DNA of 20,365 bases from a virus. The stretch is from positions 1 to 20,365 of the IMG/VR virus record IMGVR_UViG_3300046011_006499. One strand, 5' to 3'. The position numbers and the translations under genes were made by a program. Under the pieces are notes generated by a model, which saw only the letters and a list, made by a program, of their open reading frames with translations, was not told the DNA's origin and did not search any database. The first letter of the stretch is position 1, and each line of letters opens with the position of its first letter. This document shows, piece after piece, positions 2,927 to 18,432 of this stretch.

Positions 2927-3023
2927 TATTTATATAAAAAAAAAGGATATAATGAAAAAAACAAACAACTTACTCGCAGAAAATATGCGTCGTTTTGGCA
3001 CTAAAAACTTAAATGAGCAACAA
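2927..3023 (+). repeat. Duplicated upstream and N-terminal tag cassette, copy 1
   Basis: This copy begins with the 15-base element TATTTATATAAAAAA (2927-2941), shared exactly with 3457-3471, and runs through the first ~24 codons of the gene at 2952. The encoded peptide matches the start of the gene at 3479 at about 20 of 24 positions, then similarity stops abruptly. Most DNA differences in the coding part are synonymous. Confidence 0.7.
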
Positions 3024-3398
3024 ATGGATATGTTTAAACGGAATTCAGAAACCGAATACATATACGATCGCCCATGGACTGATGATAAAACTGCAGACCC
3101 TGAAGATATGATGCATGATTTACAACAAGCAATGCGAAGAAAAGAAGGACGTGCAGCAGCACAAGTCGCAAACAAACTTTTAAAATATATTTCTGTTGAT
3201 GTATATGATAATTTAAAATCAGCTGAGGATCAAGGCGTAGCGTCTTATTATCAAGATATTATTGACGCAGTGCAACAAATTAATCAAGATGTAATTAAAG
3301 ACACAATTAAAGTACTTAAAGTATCTCCAAATAACATGCCCGCAATGCAAACTATATATGATATACTTAAAGATTTAATTAACGCAATTGAACATTAA
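2952..3398 (+). CDS. Small protein with shared N-terminal tag (NNLLAENMRRFGTKNL), copy 1
   Basis: The protein has 148 residues. I chose ATG 2952, not an earlier in-frame ATG at 2883 that lies inside the previous gene, because an AAGGA sits just upstream and because the encoded N-terminus matches that of the gene at 3479. Residues 5-20 are identical in the two proteins. Beyond residue ~24 this protein is predicted largely helical and charged, with no recognised domain (for example DLQQAMRRKEGRAAAQVANKL). The tag contains LLAE near residue 10, which resembles T4 prohead-protease sites (L/I-x-E) at the end of capsid-targeting leaders of internal proteins. That makes a packaged or processed virion protein possible, but this is inference only. 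Confidence 0.85.
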   Translation: MKKTNNLLAENMRRFGTKNLNEQQMDMFKRNSETEYIYDRPWTDDKTADPEDMMHDLQQAMRRKEGRAAAQVANKLLKYISVDVYDNLKSAEDQGVASYYQDIIDAVQQINQDVIKDTIKVLKVSPNNMPAMQTIYDILKDLINAIEH

Positions 3399-3412
3399 TT
3401 ATACAATAAAAT

Positions 3413-3444
3413 AATAAGTGCTAGCAGTAATGTTGGCACTTATT
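3413..3444 (+). terminator. GNRA-capped hairpin, possible terminator or processing element
   Basis: AATAAGTGCTAGCA pairs with TGTTGGCACTTATT around the loop GTAA (3427-3430). The stem is 14 base pairs including two G-T pairs, and the outer nine pairs are perfect. GTAA as RNA is a GNRA tetraloop. It lies between two tag genes. Only a short T-rich stretch follows, so it is weaker than the terminator at 9819 and could instead protect or separate transcripts. Confidence 0.6.
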
Positions 3445-3456
3445 TACTGATTACAC

Positions 3457-3550
3457 TATTTATATAAAAAAGAACACAATGAAAAACGAAAACAACTTAC
3501 TTGCAGAAAATATGCGTAGATTCGGCACTAAGAATCTAACTGAGCAGAAT
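3457..3550 (+). repeat. Duplicated upstream and N-terminal tag cassette, copy 2
   Basis: Second copy of the cassette at 2927: TATTTATATAAAAAA at 3457-3471 followed by the first ~24 codons of the gene at 3479. The element-to-ATG distance is slightly shorter than in copy 1. Confidence 0.7.
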
Positions 3551-3871
3551 TTAAGCGATCTAGAAAATAAATTAGGATTTGATAGCGGAGCAAACCGAGA
3601 TCCTAAAACAGGTAACTTGATTAATACAACTAATAATTTAATGATTGTATTTTCGGGTGATGAAAAATTCATGGATCGTGTTGCTGTAAATGTTTTAAAA
3701 AAATATGGATTTGATAAAACTCAAATAAATCGATCATACGATGCAAATGAAGGCATTGTTGAATTTACAGTAAATATGCCAAGTGATATTGCAGAAAAAA
3801 TTGGAGATGCATTAGAAAAAGCCGATGGTGTCACAAACCAATATGGCGGTTACTATGAGCTTGAAAAATAA
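3479..3871 (+). CDS. Small protein with shared N-terminal tag (NNLLAENMRRFGTKNL), copy 2
   Basis: The protein has 130 residues. It opens with the same 16-residue peptide (residues 5-20) as the protein encoded at 2952, using different synonymous codons at several positions. The rest is unrelated: a predicted alpha/beta domain with MIVFSGDEKFMDRVAVNVLKKYGF and a second strand-helix unit (GIVEFTVNMPSDIAEKIGDAL), which reads like a small ferredoxin-like or ACT-like fold, though I cannot assign a family. It follows the hairpin at 3413 and has its own upstream TATTTATATAAAAAA element, so the two tag genes may be independently controlled. Function unknown. Confidence 0.85.
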   Translation: MKNENNLLAENMRRFGTKNLTEQNLSDLENKLGFDSGANRDPKTGNLINTTNNLMIVFSGDEKFMDRVAVNVLKKYGFDKTQINRSYDANEGIVEFTVNMPSDIAEKIGDALEKADGVTNQYGGYYELEK

Positions 3872-3935: not shown

Positions 3936-4643
3936 ATGAATTACAAAAAAATATATCAACAACTAATAGACCGCGCGATATCGCGGACATTAACTGGTTA
4001 TAAAGAACGCCATCACATTGTTCCAAAATGTATCGGAGGCGATGATAATCCTGACAACATTGCCGAGTTAACGGCTCGTGAACATTTCATAGCACATAAA
4101 CTTCTTTGCGAGATTTACCCAAGTAATAGTAAATTACAGTATGCTTTATGGATGTTATGTAACTGCAAATCATTAAATAGAACATATAAAATTTCATCTC
4201 GAGAATATGATGCATCGAAAAAATTTATTGCATCGCAAATGAGTTTAAAGATGAAAGGTGTGCCTAAATCAGAAGAACATCGACGTAAGAATAGTCAATC
4301 TAAAATTGGAAAACTTAAATCAGCAGCTACTCGTAAAAAAATGAGTGAATCTTTCAAAGGAAGAAAATTTTCTGACGAAACTAGAAACAAACTAAGTATT
4401 GCTAATACAGGAAACACACATTCTATCGAGACCAAACTAAAAATTAGTGAAGCAAGTAAAGGCAGAATATTAAGTCCTGAAGCTCGTAAAAAAATAAGTG
4501 ATGCGAAAAAAGGAAAATTATTTTCAGATGAACATCGTAAAAAATTAAGTGATGCAAAAAAAGGAAAACCTGGCAGGCGACATTCTGAAGAAACAAAACA
4601 AAAAATACGTGAAACGAAATTAAACAAAAAAACACAACTTTAA
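3936..4643 (+). CDS. HNH homing endonuclease with NUMOD3 repeats (copy 1)
   Basis: This is a 235-residue free-standing homing endonuclease of the phage HNH/Seg-Mob type. The HNH core is at residues 21-57: RHHIVPKCIGG, then DNIAELTAREHFIAHKLL (H26, H27, N41, H50, H54). Residues ~107-228 are seven tandem ~17-residue NUMOD3-type DNA-binding repeats (for example KGKLFSDEHRKKLSDAK). It has its own promoter and sits between the tag genes and the gp32-like gene, a typical position for a mobile gene that cleaves a nearby site in rival phage genomes. It is a paralogue of the gene at 7807: both begin MNY, share IIDRA/LIDRA.SRT-like and LTAREHFI.HKLL segments, and align position for position through residue ~60. 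The target site is not identifiable here. Confidence 0.9.
   Translation: MNYKKIYQQLIDRAISRTLTGYKERHHIVPKCIGGDDNPDNIAELTAREHFIAHKLLCEIYPSNSKLQYALWMLCNCKSLNRTYKISSREYDASKKFIASQMSLKMKGVPKSEEHRRKNSQSKIGKLKSAATRKKMSESFKGRKFSDETRNKLSIANTGNTHSIETKLKISEASKGRILSPEARKKISDAKKGKLFSDEHRKKLSDAKKGKPGRRHSEETKQKIRETKLNKKTQL
4254..4619 (+). repeat. Tandem ~51-base coding repeats (NUMOD3 units)
   Basis: Seven in-phase units encode about 17 residues each, with starts near 4254, 4305, 4356, 4407, 4458, 4509 and 4560; the last unit is 20 residues long. The consensus is KGK..S.E.RKKISDAK. Units 5 and 6 are most alike at DNA level, consistent with recent duplication or slippage. Confidence 0.75.
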
Positions 4644-7806: not shown

Positions 7807-8430
7807 ATGAATTACCAAAGAATACATGATGCTATAATTGATAGAGCTCGCAATCGAACATTGTTGGGATATCGAGAAAAGCATCATGTTATTCCAAGGT
7901 GTATGGGTGGAGTTGATGATAAAGATAATTTAGTTGAATTAACAGCTCGAGAACATTTCATAGTTCATAAATTACTGTGTAAAATTTATCCAACTGAAGA
8001 TAAATTGTTTTTTGCATATCGAATGATGGCAATAATGAAAACTAGTAAAGATAATGAACGTGGATATTATGTAAGCTCTCGAGAATTTGAAGAAATACGT
8101 TTATTAGCGAATGAAAAAATTAGCAATGCAATGAGAGGTAAAAAAATGCCTCCTCGACCCCAAGTTGTAATAGAAAAAATTGTAGCAGCAAGACACGCAA
8201 ATACAATTAAACGAGGATATTATCATTCCAATGAAACAAAACAAAAAATTTCTACAAAAAATAAAGGAAAAACATTATCAAAAGAGCATGTACATAATTT
8301 ACGAGAATCTCATTTGAATAATCCAAAATGCACAGGTAAAGCAGCAACTCCAGAAAAAGAAGAAATACGTAAACAAAAAATAAAAGATTCGTGGGTAATC
8401 CGAAAGTTAAAAAAAGACAATAAGTTATGA
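7807..8430 (+). CDS. HNH homing endonuclease (copy 2)
   Basis: This is a 207-residue free-standing HNH endonuclease, paralogous to the one at 3936. HNH core residues are in the same positions (H26, H27, N41, H50, H54: KHHVIPRCMGG, then DNLVELTAREHFIVHKLL). The C-terminal half has fewer and more degenerate NUMOD3-like repeats (MRGKKMPPRP; HSNETKQKISTKNKGKTLSKEH), so it likely recognises a different site. Its TGA stop overlaps the helicase ATG by four bases and lies inside the helicase's AATAAGTTATGA start motif, so the insertion has kept the helicase's initiation region. It has its own promoter. Confidence 0.9.
   Translation: MNYQRIHDAIIDRARNRTLLGYREKHHVIPRCMGGVDDKDNLVELTAREHFIVHKLLCKIYPTEDKLFFAYRMMAIMKTSKDNERGYYVSSREFEEIRLLANEKISNAMRGKKMPPRPQVVIEKIVAARHANTIKRGYYHSNETKQKISTKNKGKTLSKEHVHNLRESHLNNPKCTGKAATPEKEEIRKQKIKDSWVIRKLKKDNKL
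8419..8430 (+). promoter_or_regulatory. AATAAGTTATGA start-site motif (helicase gene)
   Basis: Identical to the motif at 6696 and 15103. It also encodes the last residues and stop of the HNH gene at 7807. No Shine-Dalgarno site precedes the ATG at 8427. Confidence 0.45.
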
Positions 8431-11770: not shown

Positions 11771-12304
11771 ATGATACGATTAAAAGAATTATTTGATACA
11801 AAAGAAAAAATCAGATGGCGTGAAGGTGATGATACAGATTTCACTACCACCTTTACTGGTCCTAACAATCAGAAATACGTAATAAACATTACTTCTTTAG
11901 AATACCTAAATTTACCAGATAGTGCCATTATTGCCGCAAGTAACCTATTACCCGATAAAGTAACAGATATGTTTAATGACGGTGAAGGGTATCATGTTGA
12001 ATTTGCGGATGCTAGTAAAGGTAAAGGTATTACTGGGTTAGGGGGTACTGATGCAGCGAAGATCTTTGGTATTGTTATTAATGCATTAGTTGATAAAATT
12101 AAACGAGAAAAATCCGAGCTTGTATTCTTTTCAGCCAAAGAGCCTTCTAGAAAAGAGTTGTATAAAAAGATGGCTCCACTTATAGCAACTAAGTTAGGAA
12201 TGCTGCAAGTTAATAATGGTACATACTATTTTTTGTACAAAGATACATCAACCACCAAATATGATTTTACTGGTATTGACACCCCAAACAACCCAACCAT
12301 GTAA
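11771..12304 (+). CDS. Conserved-looking phage protein of unknown function (SAKEPSR motif)
   Basis: This is a 177-residue protein. The C-terminal half has a pattern I recall from uncharacterised tailed-phage proteins: ITGLGGTDAAKIFGIVINAL, then ELVFFSAKEPSRKELYKKMAP. The order (strand, GTGDA-like turn, long helix, strand, F-x-A-K-E-P-S-R, helix) is reminiscent of small acetyltransferase-like alpha/beta folds, but no catalytic site is evident and I do not name a function. The N-terminus MIRLKELFDT is a short amphipathic lead. The ATG at 11771 has no Shine-Dalgarno site; the upstream bases are AT-rich (TATTTAGATATTTATTAAT). Confidence 0.75.
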   Translation: MIRLKELFDTKEKIRWREGDDTDFTTTFTGPNNQKYVINITSLEYLNLPDSAIIAASNLLPDKVTDMFNDGEGYHVEFADASKGKGITGLGGTDAAKIFGIVINALVDKIKREKSELVFFSAKEPSRKELYKKMAPLIATKLGMLQVNNGTYYFLYKDTSTTKYDFTGIDTPNNPTM

Positions 12305-12547: not shown

Positions 12548-12559
12548 ATCAAGTTATGA
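12548..12559 (+). promoter_or_regulatory. ATCAAGTTATGA start-site motif (folE)
   Basis: Variant of the AATAAGTTATGA motif, with ATG at 12556. The core AAGTTATGA is identical. No Shine-Dalgarno site is present. Confidence 0.4.
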
Positions 12560-13254
12560 CAAACGACCAAAGAAAAAACATAGAACTAGTTAAATCTGGT
12601 TTTGCTAACGGTATCTCAACACAGTTAGCAGTTAAACAAACAATATTCGGGCCTGATGCAAAATTAACATCTGAAGAAAAACAAGAGATTATTGATAATG
12701 CTGCATATCATTACGGTGAGTTTCTCCGAGCATTGGGAGTAGCATGGGAATCTGATCCAAATTCAGACAATACGCCTCGCCGTGTAGCAAAAGCATATGT
12801 TAACGATTTATGGCGTGGCAGATATGAACCGATGTCAGATATCACATCTTTTCCATCCGATGGTTATGATGGAATTGTATTCGAAGGAGGTATTCCGTTA
12901 ACATCAATGTGTTCACATCATCATCAAACGATTGAAGGATCGGTGCATATTGCATATATTCCCGCAGAAAATGGCAATGTAGTAGGTTTAAGTAAATTGA
13001 ATCGTGTAGTTGAACATTTTGGTAGACGTGGCGCAATTCAAGAACAGTTGACGGTAGCAATACAACATGCAGTAGACGAACTTATTACTGATAATAAAGG
13101 AGTAGCTGTAATGATTGAAGCAACACATAACTGCGTATCATGTAGAGGTGTTAAGCACCGAGGCGCTTCAATGAAAACTGCAAAATTATCAGGAGCATTC
13201 CTAAATGATGGAAATGCAAGATCAGAATTTTATCAATTCGTAAAAGGTTACTAA
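12556..13254 (+). CDS. folE: GTP cyclohydrolase I
   Basis: This 232-residue enzyme converts GTP to 7,8-dihydroneopterin triphosphate, the first step to both folate and 7-deazaguanine. The zinc ligands are visible: C119 and H122 in SMCSHHHQTIEG, and C193 in THNCVSCRGVKH. GLSKLNRVVEHFGRR (144-158) and QEQLT are family signatures. The N-terminal ~45 residues are a helical extension. The length is typical. The gene overlaps queD by one base (TAATG). With queD and queE beside it, its product most likely feeds the preQ0 pathway rather than folate. Confidence 0.95.
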   Translation: MTNDQRKNIELVKSGFANGISTQLAVKQTIFGPDAKLTSEEKQEIIDNAAYHYGEFLRALGVAWESDPNSDNTPRRVAKAYVNDLWRGRYEPMSDITSFPSDGYDGIVFEGGIPLTSMCSHHHQTIEGSVHIAYIPAENGNVVGLSKLNRVVEHFGRRGAIQEQLTVAIQHAVDELITDNKGVAVMIEATHNCVSCRGVKHRGASMKTAKLSGAFLNDGNARSEFYQFVKGY

Positions 13255-13715
13255 TGGCAAAATACAATTCAACAAAATTATTTGACGGTTACTCAACTTG
13301 TTTCCGTCAATGGCGAGCAGAAGGAACTCATTGTAAATTCCTACACGGGTATGCAGTATCATTCCGAGTATGGTTTGAAGGCGAGTTAGATTATCGTAAC
13401 TGGGTATGGGACTTTGGCGGAATGAAACGATCTAAAACTAAGATTGCCGGTATGTCTCCAAAAGATTATTTTGCTTGGTTATTAGATCATACTACAATTG
13501 TAGCTGACGACGATCCATATTTGGACCAATTTATACAAATGGATAAAGATGGTATTATTCAATTACGAATATTATCTGCAACCGGCTGTGAAAAGTTTGC
13601 TGAGTATTTATACAACATAATCAATATATTCTTGCAAGAAGAAACTGATGGTCGTGTAAAGGCAACAAAAGTAGAAGTTTATGAACACGAAAGAAACTCA
13701 GCAAGTTATGAATGA
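13254..13715 (+). CDS. queD: 6-carboxytetrahydropterin synthase-like (QueD), altered zinc site
   Basis: This is a 153-residue protein of the QueD/PTPS fold, predicted to convert dihydroneopterin triphosphate to 6-carboxy-tetrahydropterin. It aligns with E. coli QueD through GTHCKFLHGY (catalytic C27, H31), WDFGGMK (53-58), LDHT (D78, H79) and EVYEHE near the end (catalytic Glu). Two of the three usual zinc His positions differ: the first reads C16 (STCFRQW) and the third reads Y33 (HGY instead of HGH). I recall this FRQWRA...HGY variant as a recurring subfamily, so it is probably functional with a changed metal site. It starts one base inside the folE stop, with AAAGG upstream, and its stop overlaps the next gene. 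Confidence 0.85.
   Translation: MAKYNSTKLFDGYSTCFRQWRAEGTHCKFLHGYAVSFRVWFEGELDYRNWVWDFGGMKRSKTKIAGMSPKDYFAWLLDHTTIVADDDPYLDQFIQMDKDGIIQLRILSATGCEKFAEYLYNIINIFLQEETDGRVKATKVEVYEHERNSASYE
13700..13711 (+). promoter_or_regulatory. AGCAAGTTATGA start-site motif (SSB-tip gene)
   Basis: Variant of the AATAAGTTATGA motif that supports ATG 13708 as the start of the gene between queD and queE. Confidence 0.4.
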
Positions 13716-14079
13716 AAAGATAATTACAAGTTGGCAAGAAAATGGTATGCAATATATCATTATTGCCCGACCGATTGAAAATGCAACTGCAACGCCCAAA
13801 GGGAATGATTCAGAAATGCTTTCTGTTTATGAATATTTAGGTGGAACTCCTAGTCATGGAACTGGCGATAAAGTGTATAGACACGCAAAGCAGACAGGAG
13901 CTAAAGTTGGTACAACTGACGTATCTACTGCGAAATATACTGGACCAATTATGACATATGAACGCGCATTTCTAGATGTATATTTCAATAAGCAAACAAC
14001 TAGCTCAGCACCAGTAGTAGCAACACCACAACCTGAGACATATACATATGATCCAATTAATGATGACTTACCATTTTAA
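13708..14079 (+). CDS. Unknown small protein with SSB-like C-terminal tip (DDLPF)
   Basis: The preferred start, ATG 13708, gives 123 residues. An in-frame ATG at 13681 would add nine residues but lies deep in queD. ATG 13708 overlaps the queD stop and sits in the AAGTTATGA motif. The body (TSWQENGMQYIIIARPIEN; GTGDKVYRHAKQTGAKVG; GPIMTYERAFLDVYF) matches no family I know. The tail is a Thr/Pro/Ala/Ser linker (TSSAPVVATPQPET) followed by an acidic end, DPINDDLPF, closely resembling the DDIPF tip of bacterial SSB that docks repair and replication partners. The ~90-residue body is about the size of an OB fold, but I cannot confirm one. Possible roles are a second ssDNA-binding protein or a mimic that recruits host SSB partners. 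Confidence 0.75.
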   Translation: MNEKIITSWQENGMQYIIIARPIENATATPKGNDSEMLSVYEYLGGTPSHGTGDKVYRHAKQTGAKVGTTDVSTAKYTGPIMTYERAFLDVYFNKQTTSSAPVVATPQPETYTYDPINDDLPF

Positions 14080-14081
14080 TT

Positions 14082-14855
14082 ATGAATAAAAGAATTACAG
14101 ATTACACAAAAACATTGCCTATAGTAGAACTATATAGATGTGTACAAAGCGAAGGAAGTCGATTTGGTAGACCTACAATTGCTGTTCGAACTACTGGTTG
14201 TACACATAGATGTTGGTTTGGTGAGGGCGGTTGGTGCGATAGTTGGTACACAAGTATCCACCCAGAAAAAGGACAATTTACATTCAACGACATCGTGAAG
14301 ATATATGATGAAAATCCACATATCAGAGAAATGATGTTAACGGGAGGTTCCCCGACAATGCATCCAGCATTAGTAAATGAACTTACATGGTTTGCTCATG
14401 AACGAAACATTCACATTACGATCGAAACTGAGGGCTCGCATTTTGTTGAGACCGATTATCCTATCGATCTTATATCTCTTAGCCCTAAGTTTTCAAATAG
14501 TGTTCCCATGGTGGGAATTGCCACACCACAGGGTGATATTACCGATGAAAAGATGGTTAGACAACATAACAAGTATCGATTAAATATGGATGCTATTAAA
14601 GCTACGTTGCATTATCATACAGATTATCATTACAAACCAGTATGGGATGGCACTCCAGAAAACCTAAAAGAGATTGAAGAATTTAGAGTATCGCTTCATA
14701 TTCCAAAAGACAAAACATACATCATGCCAGCTGGCGATACTAGAGAAGAATTAATACATATGTATCCAATTGTGTTTGATATGTGTGCTGAGTATGGTTA
14801 TAACATGACAGGTAGAGACCACATCATTGCATTTGATACTAAACGAGGAGTATAA
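14082..14855 (+). CDS. queE: 7-carboxy-7-deazaguanine synthase-like radical SAM enzyme (QueE)
   Basis: This is a 257-residue radical SAM protein. QueE converts 6-carboxy-tetrahydropterin to 7-carboxy-7-deazaguanine. The 4Fe-4S ligands are C40, C44 and C52 (CTHRC, then WC), a CX3CX7C spacing instead of the common CX3CX2C; QueE enzymes are known to vary here. The N-terminus YRCVQSEGSRFGRPTIAVRTTGC is the QueE substrate-binding opening (VQSEG.R.G.P). LTGGSPTMHP (~86-95) is the SAM-binding GGE/P motif with Ser for Glu. IETEGSH (~118) and SLSPK (~132) fit QueE. Its queD neighbour supplies the substrate. The start overlaps nothing, and the stop overlaps thioredoxin by one base. Confidence 0.88.
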   Translation: MNKRITDYTKTLPIVELYRCVQSEGSRFGRPTIAVRTTGCTHRCWFGEGGWCDSWYTSIHPEKGQFTFNDIVKIYDENPHIREMMLTGGSPTMHPALVNELTWFAHERNIHITIETEGSHFVETDYPIDLISLSPKFSNSVPMVGIATPQGDITDEKMVRQHNKYRLNMDAIKATLHYHTDYHYKPVWDGTPENLKEIEEFRVSLHIPKDKTYIMPAGDTREELIHMYPIVFDMCAEYGYNMTGRDHIIAFDTKRGV

Positions 14856-15410: not shown

Positions 15411-15919
15411 TGGAAATTATCATCAATAAACAAGACATTACAGCCCGAGTTAAAGCATTAGCAGAGGCAATATCAATTGATCATGTAATTAACAGCACTA
15501 ATGTATTACCACCTGTAATGATATGTGTGCTAAATGGATCATTTCATTTCTTTTCAGATTTAACTAGAATGATGTCAATCGATTGCGAAGTTGATTTTAT
15601 TCGTTTAAAATCATATAACGGTCAAGATAATTCACAAGGTGTAGTAATCACCAAAGGTTTAGAATTAGATTTAAAAGGTAAACGAGTTTATATTGTTGAT
15701 GATATTTTAGATTCTGGGGCAACTATGATTGAAGCATTAACGATGATTAATGACCGTATGGCACAAGAAGTCAAAGTAGTAACATTGTTAAAACGAAAAG
15801 ATGGTCCAATGACTCCAGACTTTTATGGATTTGAAATTGGAAATGAATTTGTATATGGATATGGACTAGATGATTACGGACTTAAGAGACACTTACAAGA
15901 TATTTACAAAATAAAATAA
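15410..15919 (+). CDS. hpt: Hypoxanthine/guanine phosphoribosyltransferase
   Basis: This is a 169-residue, normal-length purine phosphoribosyltransferase that transfers a base to PRPP. The PRPP-binding motif VYIVDDILDSGATM is at 93-106. LNGSFHFFSDLTR (41-53) is loop I, SYNGQDNSQG (68-77) is the flexible loop, and the base-binding end is LLKRK (126-130) plus FVYGYGLDDYGLKR (147-160). It would salvage hypoxanthine or guanine from host DNA and RNA into IMP or GMP, and so GTP, the substrate of FolE in the same run. A role with 7-deazaguanine bases cannot be excluded. It is coupled by one-base overlaps to the co-chaperonin and to the polymerase. Confidence 0.93.
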   Translation: MEIIINKQDITARVKALAEAISIDHVINSTNVLPPVMICVLNGSFHFFSDLTRMMSIDCEVDFIRLKSYNGQDNSQGVVITKGLELDLKGKRVYIVDDILDSGATMIEALTMINDRMAQEVKVVTLLKRKDGPMTPDFYGFEIGNEFVYGYGLDDYGLKRHLQDIYKIK

Positions 15920-18432
15920 TGGCATATACATCAATAGGACACGACAAAAAAAATGGAATTATTCACGTATGGGACGATGAATTAGGACATCAAAAATTCC
16001 CATTTCAACCATACGGATATTTGCCAGATCCATCCGGACAATATCAATCTCTAGATGGTACTAAATTAAAAAAGGTTGCTGGTAATCATCGTGATAATCC
16101 TAAATCATATGAATCTGATCTCAATGAAGAAGTTAGAACATTGATTGACTTATATTACGAATCAGACGAACCATCTAAAGGGCATCGTGATTTCTTTTTT
16201 GATATTGAAACTGCTAAAGACGAAAACGGTTATAGTACAACCGAAGATGTTCGAACAGCTATCACATCTATTGCATATTACGATAAAGCCGGCAAAGACC
16301 GCCGAGTATTAATTCTAGATGAATTAGGTCGCATAAAAGAACGCGAAATCCAAGGCGATGGCTATGTATTAGAGATATTCCGAGATGAAAAAGACTTATT
16401 AACTAGATTTATCAATATATTCGCAGCAATACATCCAACTGTAATTACTGGGTGGAACACTGATGGATATGATATTCCATATTTAATGGGTCGATGTAAA
16501 AAAGTATTAGGGGCACAATCAATCAAGAAATTCTCGCCAGCTGGAATTGTTGAACAATCTAAATCAGGTAAATGGAAGATATTCGGAGTATCTAGTTTAG
16601 ACTACATTAAACTGTATAAAAACTTTACATATACAGAACTTCCAAATTATCGATTAGACACTGTTGCTAAAAAAGAATTAGGTCGAGGCAAAGTAGAATA
16701 CGATGGAGATTTAGACACATTGTTTACTCAGGATATTCACAAGTTTGCATATTATAACATGACGGACGTTGATTTGATTGTGGATATGGATGACAAACTG
16801 CAACTACTAAATTTAGCCCGTACAATTTGCCATAAAGGACACGTTCCATATGAAGATGTATACTTTGCATCTAAATATCTAGATGGCGCGGCCATTGTAG
16901 ATTTGAAAAGAAACGGATTTGTTGCTCCAAACAAGCAATTTAGATTTGTAGAAGATGAAACTACAGCAGATGCATTAGCCGGAGCCTATGTAATGGCACC
17001 AGTGCCTGGATTGTATAAATGGATCTATGACTTAGATTTAACTTCACTGTATCCAAGTATCATCATGACTGCAAATATTTCTCCAGAAACTAAAATTGCC
17101 GTTATAAAAGATTGGAATCAAGAATGCTTGTTAAGTCCAACCGCAACTCAAGTACAATTTACTGACGGAACATGGGCTCAAGACATCAAACAATGGTTAA
17201 CTGATATGAATTATTCAGTAGCCAGTAACGGAGCTGTATACCGCAATGATAAGCGAGGATTCTTACCAACCATTCTAGAAAAATGGTTTGATGAGCGTGT
17301 TATTTACAAAGATAAGCGTGATACATTTGAGGTAGGAACAGAAGAATATAAATTTTATGATGCCATGCAGTTAACGCAAAAAGTATTGCTTAATTCATTT
17401 TATGGTGTGTTAGGATTAAAAACATTTCGATTCTATGATTTAGATAATGCCGGGGCAATTACAGCAGTTGGTCAAAGCATTATTAAATTCTCAGCAAAAG
17501 TTATTAACAACTATTACAAGAAAGAATTAGGAACAGATCACTTTGTTAATGCATCTGGAGATAAAGCTGAGTTTGCATTCTATACGGATACAGATTCAAC
17601 GTTTTGTAGCAGCGAACCACTAATTAAACACAGATTCCCGGGATGTAATACTGAGGATGAACAGTTTATGATTGAACAAACAAATGCAATTGCATCTGAA
17701 ATTCAGCAAACTGTGAATACCATGTACGATCAATATGCAAAAGTGTTCCACAATACAACTAAACACCGTTTCCAAATCAAGCAAGAATATATTGCTAAAT
17801 CTGGTTTATGGATTGCCAAGAAAAGATATGCTCAATGGGTTATTTTTAAAGAAGGTAAACCTACGGATAAATTGGATATTAAAGGATTAGATGTTGTAAG
17901 ATCAAGTTTCCCGGAAGATTTTAAAAAGATCATGAAAGAAACATTGTGGTATATTCTTAAAGGCAAAGACAAACAAACTACTTCCACATTGATACATGAT
18001 TTCAAAAGTAACATTAAAAAATCAGAAGTGTTGAATGTAATGAAGAATTCAAGTGTTAAAGAATTATCCAAATACATTCGAGGTCGAAAATCGTTTTCTG
18101 GATTTATAAAAGGTACTACGGCACATGCAAAAGCAGCAATCAATTTTAATGATATGCTTTCAACATTGTCAACTGATATTCTACCAATTAAAGACGGTGA
18201 AAAAATCAAATGGGGCTACATGGTAAACAATCCATATGGGTTTGAAACTTTGGCATTGCGAGGCTATCAAGATCCACCGGAAATAGTTGAGTTTGCAAAA
18301 CAGTATATTGATCACACTAAAATGTTTACATCTGATTTGAGTAACAAGTTCAATGATTTTTATGCCGCAATGGGTTGGGGACAGTTACCGGAAAATAATA
18401 ACGCTAAAAAGTTCTTTTCATTTGGGAAATAA
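15919..18432 (+). CDS. Family B DNA polymerase, T4 gp43-like
   Basis: This 837-residue replicative polymerase has proofreading motifs (T4 gp43 is 898). The 3'-5' exonuclease is complete: FFFDIET (Exo I, D95 and E97), ITGWNTDGYDIPYL (Exo II, ~176-189) and YYNMTDVDLIVDMD (Exo III, ~276). Polymerase motifs are DLDLTSLYPS (motif A, 371-380), KVLLNSFYG (motif B, 488-496) and FYTDTDST (motif C, D557 and D559). KSGLWIAKKRYA (~634) is the Kx-Y-like motif. The C-terminus (NNAKKFFSFGK) resembles the clamp-binding tail of T4-type polymerases, with an FF-containing hydrophobic patch. It starts one base inside the preceding stop and is the last gene of the run from 12556. The promoter for the next gene overlaps its end. 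Confidence 0.96.
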   Translation: MAYTSIGHDKKNGIIHVWDDELGHQKFPFQPYGYLPDPSGQYQSLDGTKLKKVAGNHRDNPKSYESDLNEEVRTLIDLYYESDEPSKGHRDFFFDIETAKDENGYSTTEDVRTAITSIAYYDKAGKDRRVLILDELGRIKEREIQGDGYVLEIFRDEKDLLTRFINIFAAIHPTVITGWNTDGYDIPYLMGRCKKVLGAQSIKKFSPAGIVEQSKSGKWKIFGVSSLDYIKLYKNFTYTELPNYRLDTVAKKELGRGKVEYDGDLDTLFTQDIHKFAYYNMTDVDLIVDMDDKLQLLNLARTICHKGHVPYEDVYFASKYLDGAAIVDLKRNGFVAPNKQFRFVEDETTADALAGAYVMAPVPGLYKWIYDLDLTSLYPSIIMTANISPETKIAVIKDWNQECLLSPTATQVQFTDGTWAQDIKQWLTDMNYSVASNGAVYRNDKRGFLPTILEKWFDERVIYKDKRDTFEVGTEEYKFYDAMQLTQKVLLNSFYGVLGLKTFRFYDLDNAGAITAVGQSIIKFSAKVINNYYKKELGTDHFVNASGDKAEFAFYTDTDSTFCSSEPLIKHRFPGCNTEDEQFMIEQTNAIASEIQQTVNTMYDQYAKVFHNTTKHRFQIKQEYIAKSGLWIAKKRYAQWVIFKEGKPTDKLDIKGLDVVRSSFPEDFKKIMKETLWYILKGKDKQTTSTLIHDFKSNIKKSEVLNVMKNSSVKELSKYIRGRKSFSGFIKGTTAHAKAAINFNDMLSTLSTDILPIKDGEKIKWGYMVNNPYGFETLALRGYQDPPEIVEFAKQYIDHTKMFTSDLSNKFNDFYAAMGWGQLPENNNAKKFFSFGK

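Follow-up and report, generated by a model that had tools for sequence, protein, structure and literature searches.

The window, that is, the whole stretch of DNA that was analysed, is a viral fragment of 20,365 bases which carries T4-like replication genes (a gp32-like ssb, a RecA-like recombinase, a 5′-3′ exonuclease, a DnaB-like helicase and a DNA polymerase B) and is without a head module. A family A polymerase C-terminal region (115-1308) and a family B polymerase (15919-18432) are encoded by the same phage, and two NUMOD3-containing genes were found inserted in the replication cluster at 3936-4643 and 7807-8430, the former with a strong match to HNH homing endonuclease families. The phage is T4-like and probably one of Bacteroidetes bacteria, as judged from a cultured Flavobacterium relative, phage immuto, and from the published host prediction that links Far-T4 viruses to Bacteroidetes (PMC7198788).

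Two small genes on the plus strand, at 2952..3398 (148 aa) and 3479..3871 (130 aa), encode predicted internal head proteins which share an N-terminal peptide. Residues 5-20, NNLLAENMRRFGTKNL, are exactly the same in both proteins and are encoded at 2964..3011 and 3491..3538 (both plus strand), in agreement with a first-pass annotation of the sequence, which had also described the remainder of the two proteins as unrelated. The bodies fell into separate blastp clusters, and the AlphaFold2 (AF2) folds differed, one being beta-alpha-beta and the other all-helical. In the comparison of the codons of the tag, 6 of 16 differed (7 of 48 nt), all synonymously, where about six had been reported. Selection on the peptide instead of recent copying, as concluded there, is borne out by codons that have diverged synonymously around fixed residues in front of unrelated cargos, and a recent gene duplication was rejected for the pair on the grounds of the same synonymous divergence and unrelated cargo. 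A Sec signal peptide was rejected as well, as N, E, R, R and K are among residues 5-20, which are without a hydrophobic run.

The first tagged protein has a helical cargo for which no family was found in Pfam or PHROG; a 45.8% identical cargo bearing the same tag occurs at two other loci (L043 and L081). Its model was of low confidence, and the only match in the fold search was a phage protein that is 95% identical. In the second protein the tag region is followed by a linker module, LSDLENKLGFDSGANRDPKTGN (3551..3616, plus strand). This module is optional; other tagged and leader-bearing proteins have it too, on several different cargos and whether or not the NMRRF core is present. The cargo domain (residues 52-130; 3632..3868, plus strand) has a predicted ferredoxin-like beta-alpha-beta-beta-alpha-beta fold. 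In the AF2 model this block was folded separately with a pLDDT of about 80-88, while the leader was of low confidence (48-58), and in a fold search with the cargo the matches were PII/ACT-like and weak throughout (best E 5.5e-3).

Far-T4 phages are common in water, and among the uncultured ones the tag proved to be common too. IMG/VR was searched with a degenerate DNA pattern for ENMxRFxxKN, which matched at least 120 stretches, many loci having two or three copies; the further tagged proteins which the first-pass annotation had suggested looking for in relatives are thus numerous. From the matches listed, a set of 130 distinct tagged ORFs (128 non-redundant at the tag level) was compiled, the IMG/VR contigs behind these counts being partly redundant. 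In 20 long tagged contigs the real pattern matched in all 20 and a reversed control pattern gave 0 matches, and therefore the tag is not a product of chance. The match ENMYSFIRKN in contig G003 was regarded as a chance hit and left out of the tag counts. Among the matches listed, 117 of 118 distinct strict matches were located at an ORF start (this number includes three non-ATG starts and one ORF cut by the contig edge) and 1, at locus L007, was internal; the tag glutamate of the strict matches listed sits 5-11 residues past the Met. The 127 cargos behind the tag among the matches listed were assigned to 76 blastp clusters. When 72 cargo representatives were compared with Pfam and PHROGs, none had a PHROG family and Pfam gave weak hits in isolated cases only, and consequently a function cannot be read from the cargo. 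A tblastn search of a cultured-phage collection with the two window proteins and the consensus tags returned no credible homologue, apparently as the cores of cultured relatives are different ones, and nothing was found in the literature under the tag strings. The scan of bacterial genomes for the tag yielded one MAG contig of 4.35 kb, which is not usable as a host link. At two loci (L007 and L083) the tag recurs within a single ORF, at residue 138, as if two tagged proteins had been fused. Additionally, an EF-hand or thrombospondin-3-like module, D-x-D-x-N-N-N-G-Y-P-D-x-x-E, was seen directly behind the tag on different cargos (L016, L022, L037, L049, L070, L072, L074, L093, L214 and L216).

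The tag consensus reads M-(I/K)KLK-N-[IL]-L-A-E-N-M-[RL]-R-F-G-T-K-N-L-x-E, and its layout, [IL]-L-x-E / NMxRFGTKN / L-x-E, thus places a core between two predicted cleavage sites of the T4 gp21 type. These two sites, LAE and L[STN..]E, strengthen the likeness to T4 capsid-targeting leaders with prohead cleavage to which the first-pass annotation had drawn attention. In the first protein, the predicted prohead-protease sites are L8-A9-E10 before N11 (2973..2981) and L20-N21-E22 before Q23 (3009..3017), and in the second L8-A9-E10 before N11 (3500..3508) and L20-T21-E22 before Q23 (3536..3544), all on the plus strand. Since the glutamate of site 1 belonged to the search pattern, only the remaining residues count as independent evidence; leucine, which was outside the pattern, occupies the P3 position two residues before it in 126 of 128 tags among the matches listed. 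At site 2, twelve residues past the first glutamate, [LI]xE was found in 106 of 128 tags among the matches listed, the other 22 being without it, and the x of this site is highly variable, no other position of the tag being less conserved (1.48 bits). Of the L-type tags (NMLRF...) among the matches listed, 50 of 54 have a third [LI]xE in the 37 residues that follow, with 73 such sites there against 23.4 ± 4.2 in shuffles; for the R-type tags, to which those of the window belong, no third-site enrichment was detected in the shuffle comparison. If a head protease acts on tagged proteins, their mature parts should be poor in its sites. Among the matches listed, [LI]xE occurred in the tagged cargo bodies at 0.70 of the shuffle expectation, compared with 1.22 ± 0.10 for length-matched other proteins of the clade, and a value as low as that of the cargo was reached in 0 of 5000 draws.

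On the plus strand upstream of both genes, an element reading TATTTATA is located at 2927..2934 and 3457..3464. The tag pair was placed correctly in the first-pass annotation, with the small correction that position 2927, given there as the start, belongs to this element and not to a gene. Among the matches listed, the element lies 15-40 nt upstream of most of the 130 tagged genes, and TATTTAT was present within 60 nt upstream of 97 of the 130, compared with 10.5 expected by shuffling; it was found upstream of 61 of 386 other ORFs in two genomes of about 160 kb (enrichment at tagged genes, p = 1.5e-34). The element also stands, in tagged genomes, ahead of portal, neck, sheath and tube genes or operons, and none of the replication genes in the window is preceded by it. 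Because it accompanies tagged and structural genes and none of these replication genes, the element is probably a late promoter as judged from its distribution; the element of T4 late promoters reads TATAAATA, compared with TATTTATA here. A palindrome, CAAGAAAATTTCTTGG, is found at 2905-2920 ahead of the first tagged gene, and a similar sequence was observed upstream of about 18 of the 130 tagged genes.

Of the 20 long tagged contigs, 9 have a protease of the T4 gp21 family (Peptidase_S77) and 8 have Gp23; the contigs without them are mostly shorter fragments, and the 100 kb contig G006 is also without both. In a second contig set Peptidase_S77 was present in 16 of 17. The gp21-like protease for which the first-pass annotation had proposed a search is found, as is Gp23, in tagged genomes that hold the head module, and the homologues of the clade keep the HP and SSRG motifs (His/Ser) of T4 gp21. 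Moreover, the cleavage region of T4 gp23, FLTE/A (the slash marks the cut), aligns with QLVKE/A or QLISE/A in the clade. In contig G028 (that of locus L330) the gp21 homologue at 50206-50733 reads through one in-frame TAG, a possible case of amber recoding.

The cultured relative with the closest gp23 is Flavobacterium phage immuto (57.5% to gp23 of a tagged contig), which is without NMRRF but has two other leaders. One of them, with the layout ILSE/EFRRMQKLAGI/ITE, occurs on two immuto proteins in the form ILSEQF[KR]RMQxLAGIITE (L183:25061-25456 and L185:11675-12139), and as MKKQILSE/EFRRMQKLAGI/ITE it was found in at least 120 IMG/VR stretches (L251-L370) at the N-termini of many unrelated phage proteins. 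Among the matches listed it was N-terminal in 99 of 105 distinct cases. Of 106 cores among them, 87 had [IL]xE in front and 97 had [LI]xE behind, and the cargo was likewise depleted of [LI]xE (0.71). It thus differs from the NMRRF tag in its core sequence and has in common with it the order ILxE / core / ITE, the N-terminal position, the gp21-bearing T4-like genomes and the [LI]xE-depleted cargo. The NMRRF tag was not found in 12 genomes with the EFRRMQKLAGI core, nor this core in 7 genomes with the NMRRF tag; as these genomes had been picked for one core each, the finding is only suggestive of cores that differ between lineages. The other immuto leader, FDLKKFLVENKLTxNS (FxLxxFLxENKLTxN), is carried by four proteins (L183:1803, L185:3806, L185:17631 and L185:18632) and can be aligned with the window tag without gaps (LVENKLTTNSKILKE / LAENMRRFGTKNLSE). 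The literature on these phages, immuto included, yielded no cleavage assay, no virion proteomics and no N-terminal sequencing.

Leaders were also seen to be exchanged at the locus of the window itself. The cargo beginning LMIVFSGDEKFMDR is 95-100% identical in several contigs and is preceded by different leaders, namely MKNENNLLAE+NMRRFGTKNL in the window, MKKSLKQTLKE+NMRRFGTKNL in L211, MIRLKSLLKE without the core in L212, and MTMIKLKHLLKE without core and linker in L220; in its distant homologues at L214 and L216 an extra EF-hand-like DTDSNNNGYPDDTE module is present. A leader end in LxE (LLxE or TLKE) is kept throughout the close variants, the exception being the more distant L213 tag with LTG where the others have LxE. 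These swaps bear, together with the conservation of the tag, on site 1 of the second protein, and the conservation on its site 2. Genes that bear a leader or the tag are found at the corresponding place, between the polA/412-aa genes upstream and ssb, in G002, G001 and immuto, which resembles a variable internal-protein locus. In the window, the 412-aa protein (1305-2543) belongs to no family, has TATTTATA upstream and begins MNIDSILTEW; it stands beside tagged genes in many contigs. A further leader, M-I-[RK]-L-K-x-L-L-x-E with IGxGxAxPY or DLRRW behind it, was noticed on several proteins of G002 and G001 (L190:15028, L190:15548, L195:3396, L192:5633, L197:11181 and L198:15246), and a 177-aa protein of the window (11771-12304), which starts MIRLKELF and has TATTTAT just upstream, may bear another leader.

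In T4, an N-terminal leader is all that the internal proteins have in common; they are packaged and then injected (PMC12373910, PMC3012670), and Ip1-3 block GmrSD restriction enzymes (PMC12373910, PMC3012670, PMC9391042). The capsid-targeting sequence (CTS) of IPI, IPII and IPIII is, like the tag, an N-terminal leader of about 10-20 residues on unrelated small proteins with an [LI]xE end (PMC3012670, PMC12373910), found in phages with gp21, gp22 and gp23 and on variable genes. When T4 was scanned de novo for shared N-termini in the same way, the known ipII/ipIII leader MKTYQEFIAE was recovered, in which the first site ends at residue 10 as in the window. However, the tag differs from it in sequence: only the xIAE/LLAE end and the spacing agree, which does not amount to homology, and the NMRRF core is absent from the N-termini of T4 ipI, ipII, ipIII and alt. 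The tag also adds a second conserved core, NMxRFGTKN, then L-x-E, is carried by 76 cargo clusters among the matches listed and is joined by optional further modules, and its packaging and cleavage are predictions only. The propeptide of T4 Alt, an injected head protein, is similarly short, N-terminal and removed by gp21, at ITE-6 (PMC5694885), but it belongs to a single protein with an ADP-ribosyltransferase cargo and has no shared core; no ADP-ribosyltransferase domain was found by Pfam and PHROG among the 72 cargo representatives. In SPN3US and phiKZ-like giant phages, inner head (ejection) proteins are also cleaved after glutamate, and gp53 and gp54 are diverged paralogues with an identical 15-residue N-terminus, but the propeptides are of unrelated sequence, usually over 100 residues long, and are cut at A-x-E or S-x-E (PMC5694885). 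A giant-phage propeptide of this kind was rejected for the tag, the sites of which are L-x-E and the leader of which has about 22 residues.

Taken together, the shared peptide is very likely a capsid-targeting leader of the T4 internal-protein kind in Far-T4 phages, acting as address peptide and propeptide. Capsid targeting and prohead cleavage as in T4, which the first-pass annotation had put forward, are the best explanation on strong but indirect sequence evidence; of the two destinations named there, the virion head is favoured and the alternative of a phage compartment is unnecessary. The tagged proteins would be made late, and the leader would bind the scaffolding core of the prohead. 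A gp21-type protease would then cut after L-x-E, at LAE/N and at the L-x-E about 12 residues further on, sometimes with a third cut; extra propeptide sites have been proposed to help clear fragments, gp21 cutting after glutamate (PMC5694885). With the leader removed, the mature, unrelated cargo would stay in the head with the DNA and, most likely, enter the host by injection at infection, to act there as host-directed or anti-defence proteins. Cleavage, packaging and the binding of the leader to the core are what we infer, and injection and an anti-defence role we infer more weakly. FolE, QueD and a radical-SAM protein at the QueE position (12556-14855) form a preQ0-type pathway, suggesting 7-deazaguanine-modified DNA in the window phage, and the annotation of immuto includes DpdA; such modified DNA, together with injected inhibitors of restriction aimed at it, may be a plausible parallel.

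Among the other explanations considered, a permanent docking peptide for a non-head part of the virion or an assembly complex (baseplate, tail or a membrane site), which would act without proteolysis and in which L-x-E would merely belong to an amphipathic helix, is unlikely. The structural-type upstream element would suit any virion protein, and a short helix at residues 4-14 was predicted by AF2; in the absence of proteolysis, however, two spaced L-x-E sites with a free x, a third site in most L-type tags and the avoidance of [LI]xE in the cargo of two independent leader systems would be unexpected, and leaders are swapped with LLxE or TLKE retained. That same element of structural type also argues against a signal for degradation or for binding a host factor inside infected cells (regulated proteolysis, or the recruitment of a chaperone or of RNA polymerase), as do the co-occurrence of the tag with the gp21 protease and cores that are specific to clades instead of forming one host motif. 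This explanation, for which it can be said that the cargos are unknown proteins among replication and accessory genes and that the leaders are short, N-terminal and N-degron-like, is considered very improbable. A repeat kept at the DNA level, as a recombination site or as a translation or transcription element aiding the shuffling of small genes, deserves least credence of all: leader modules are clearly exchanged between genes, which fits recombination in short conserved segments, yet codons have diverged synonymously, also across loci, while residues stayed fixed, and the conservation is residue-specific with the position between L and E left free.

As a capsid-targeting leader, the tag appears to work like the T4 CTS without being homologous to it in sequence, and what is new would be the extra excisable core and the lineage-specific versions; given these versions, the second core and the missing homology, it is to be regarded as a variant of the T4 CTS. 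Possible, though put forward tentatively, is an addressable cargo system of Far-T4 phages in which a lineage core (NMRRFGTKNL, EFRRMQKLAGI or ENKLTxNS) between two protease sites would be recognised by a cognate receptor on the scaffold or portal that co-evolves with it and would be cut out as a free peptide, and in which dozens of types of injected effectors would be swapped behind the core with optional linker and EF-hand-like modules.

Since targeting of the tagged proteins to the head is likely, the tag points to proteins which the phage may inject into its host. It may therefore serve as a readable marker of unknown Far-T4 proteins, a large set that is probably packaged and perhaps injected. 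Which proteins Far-T4 phages inject becomes a directly testable question in the cultured Flavobacterium phage immuto, and the leaders described here offer new address tags with which to package proteins into phage heads.
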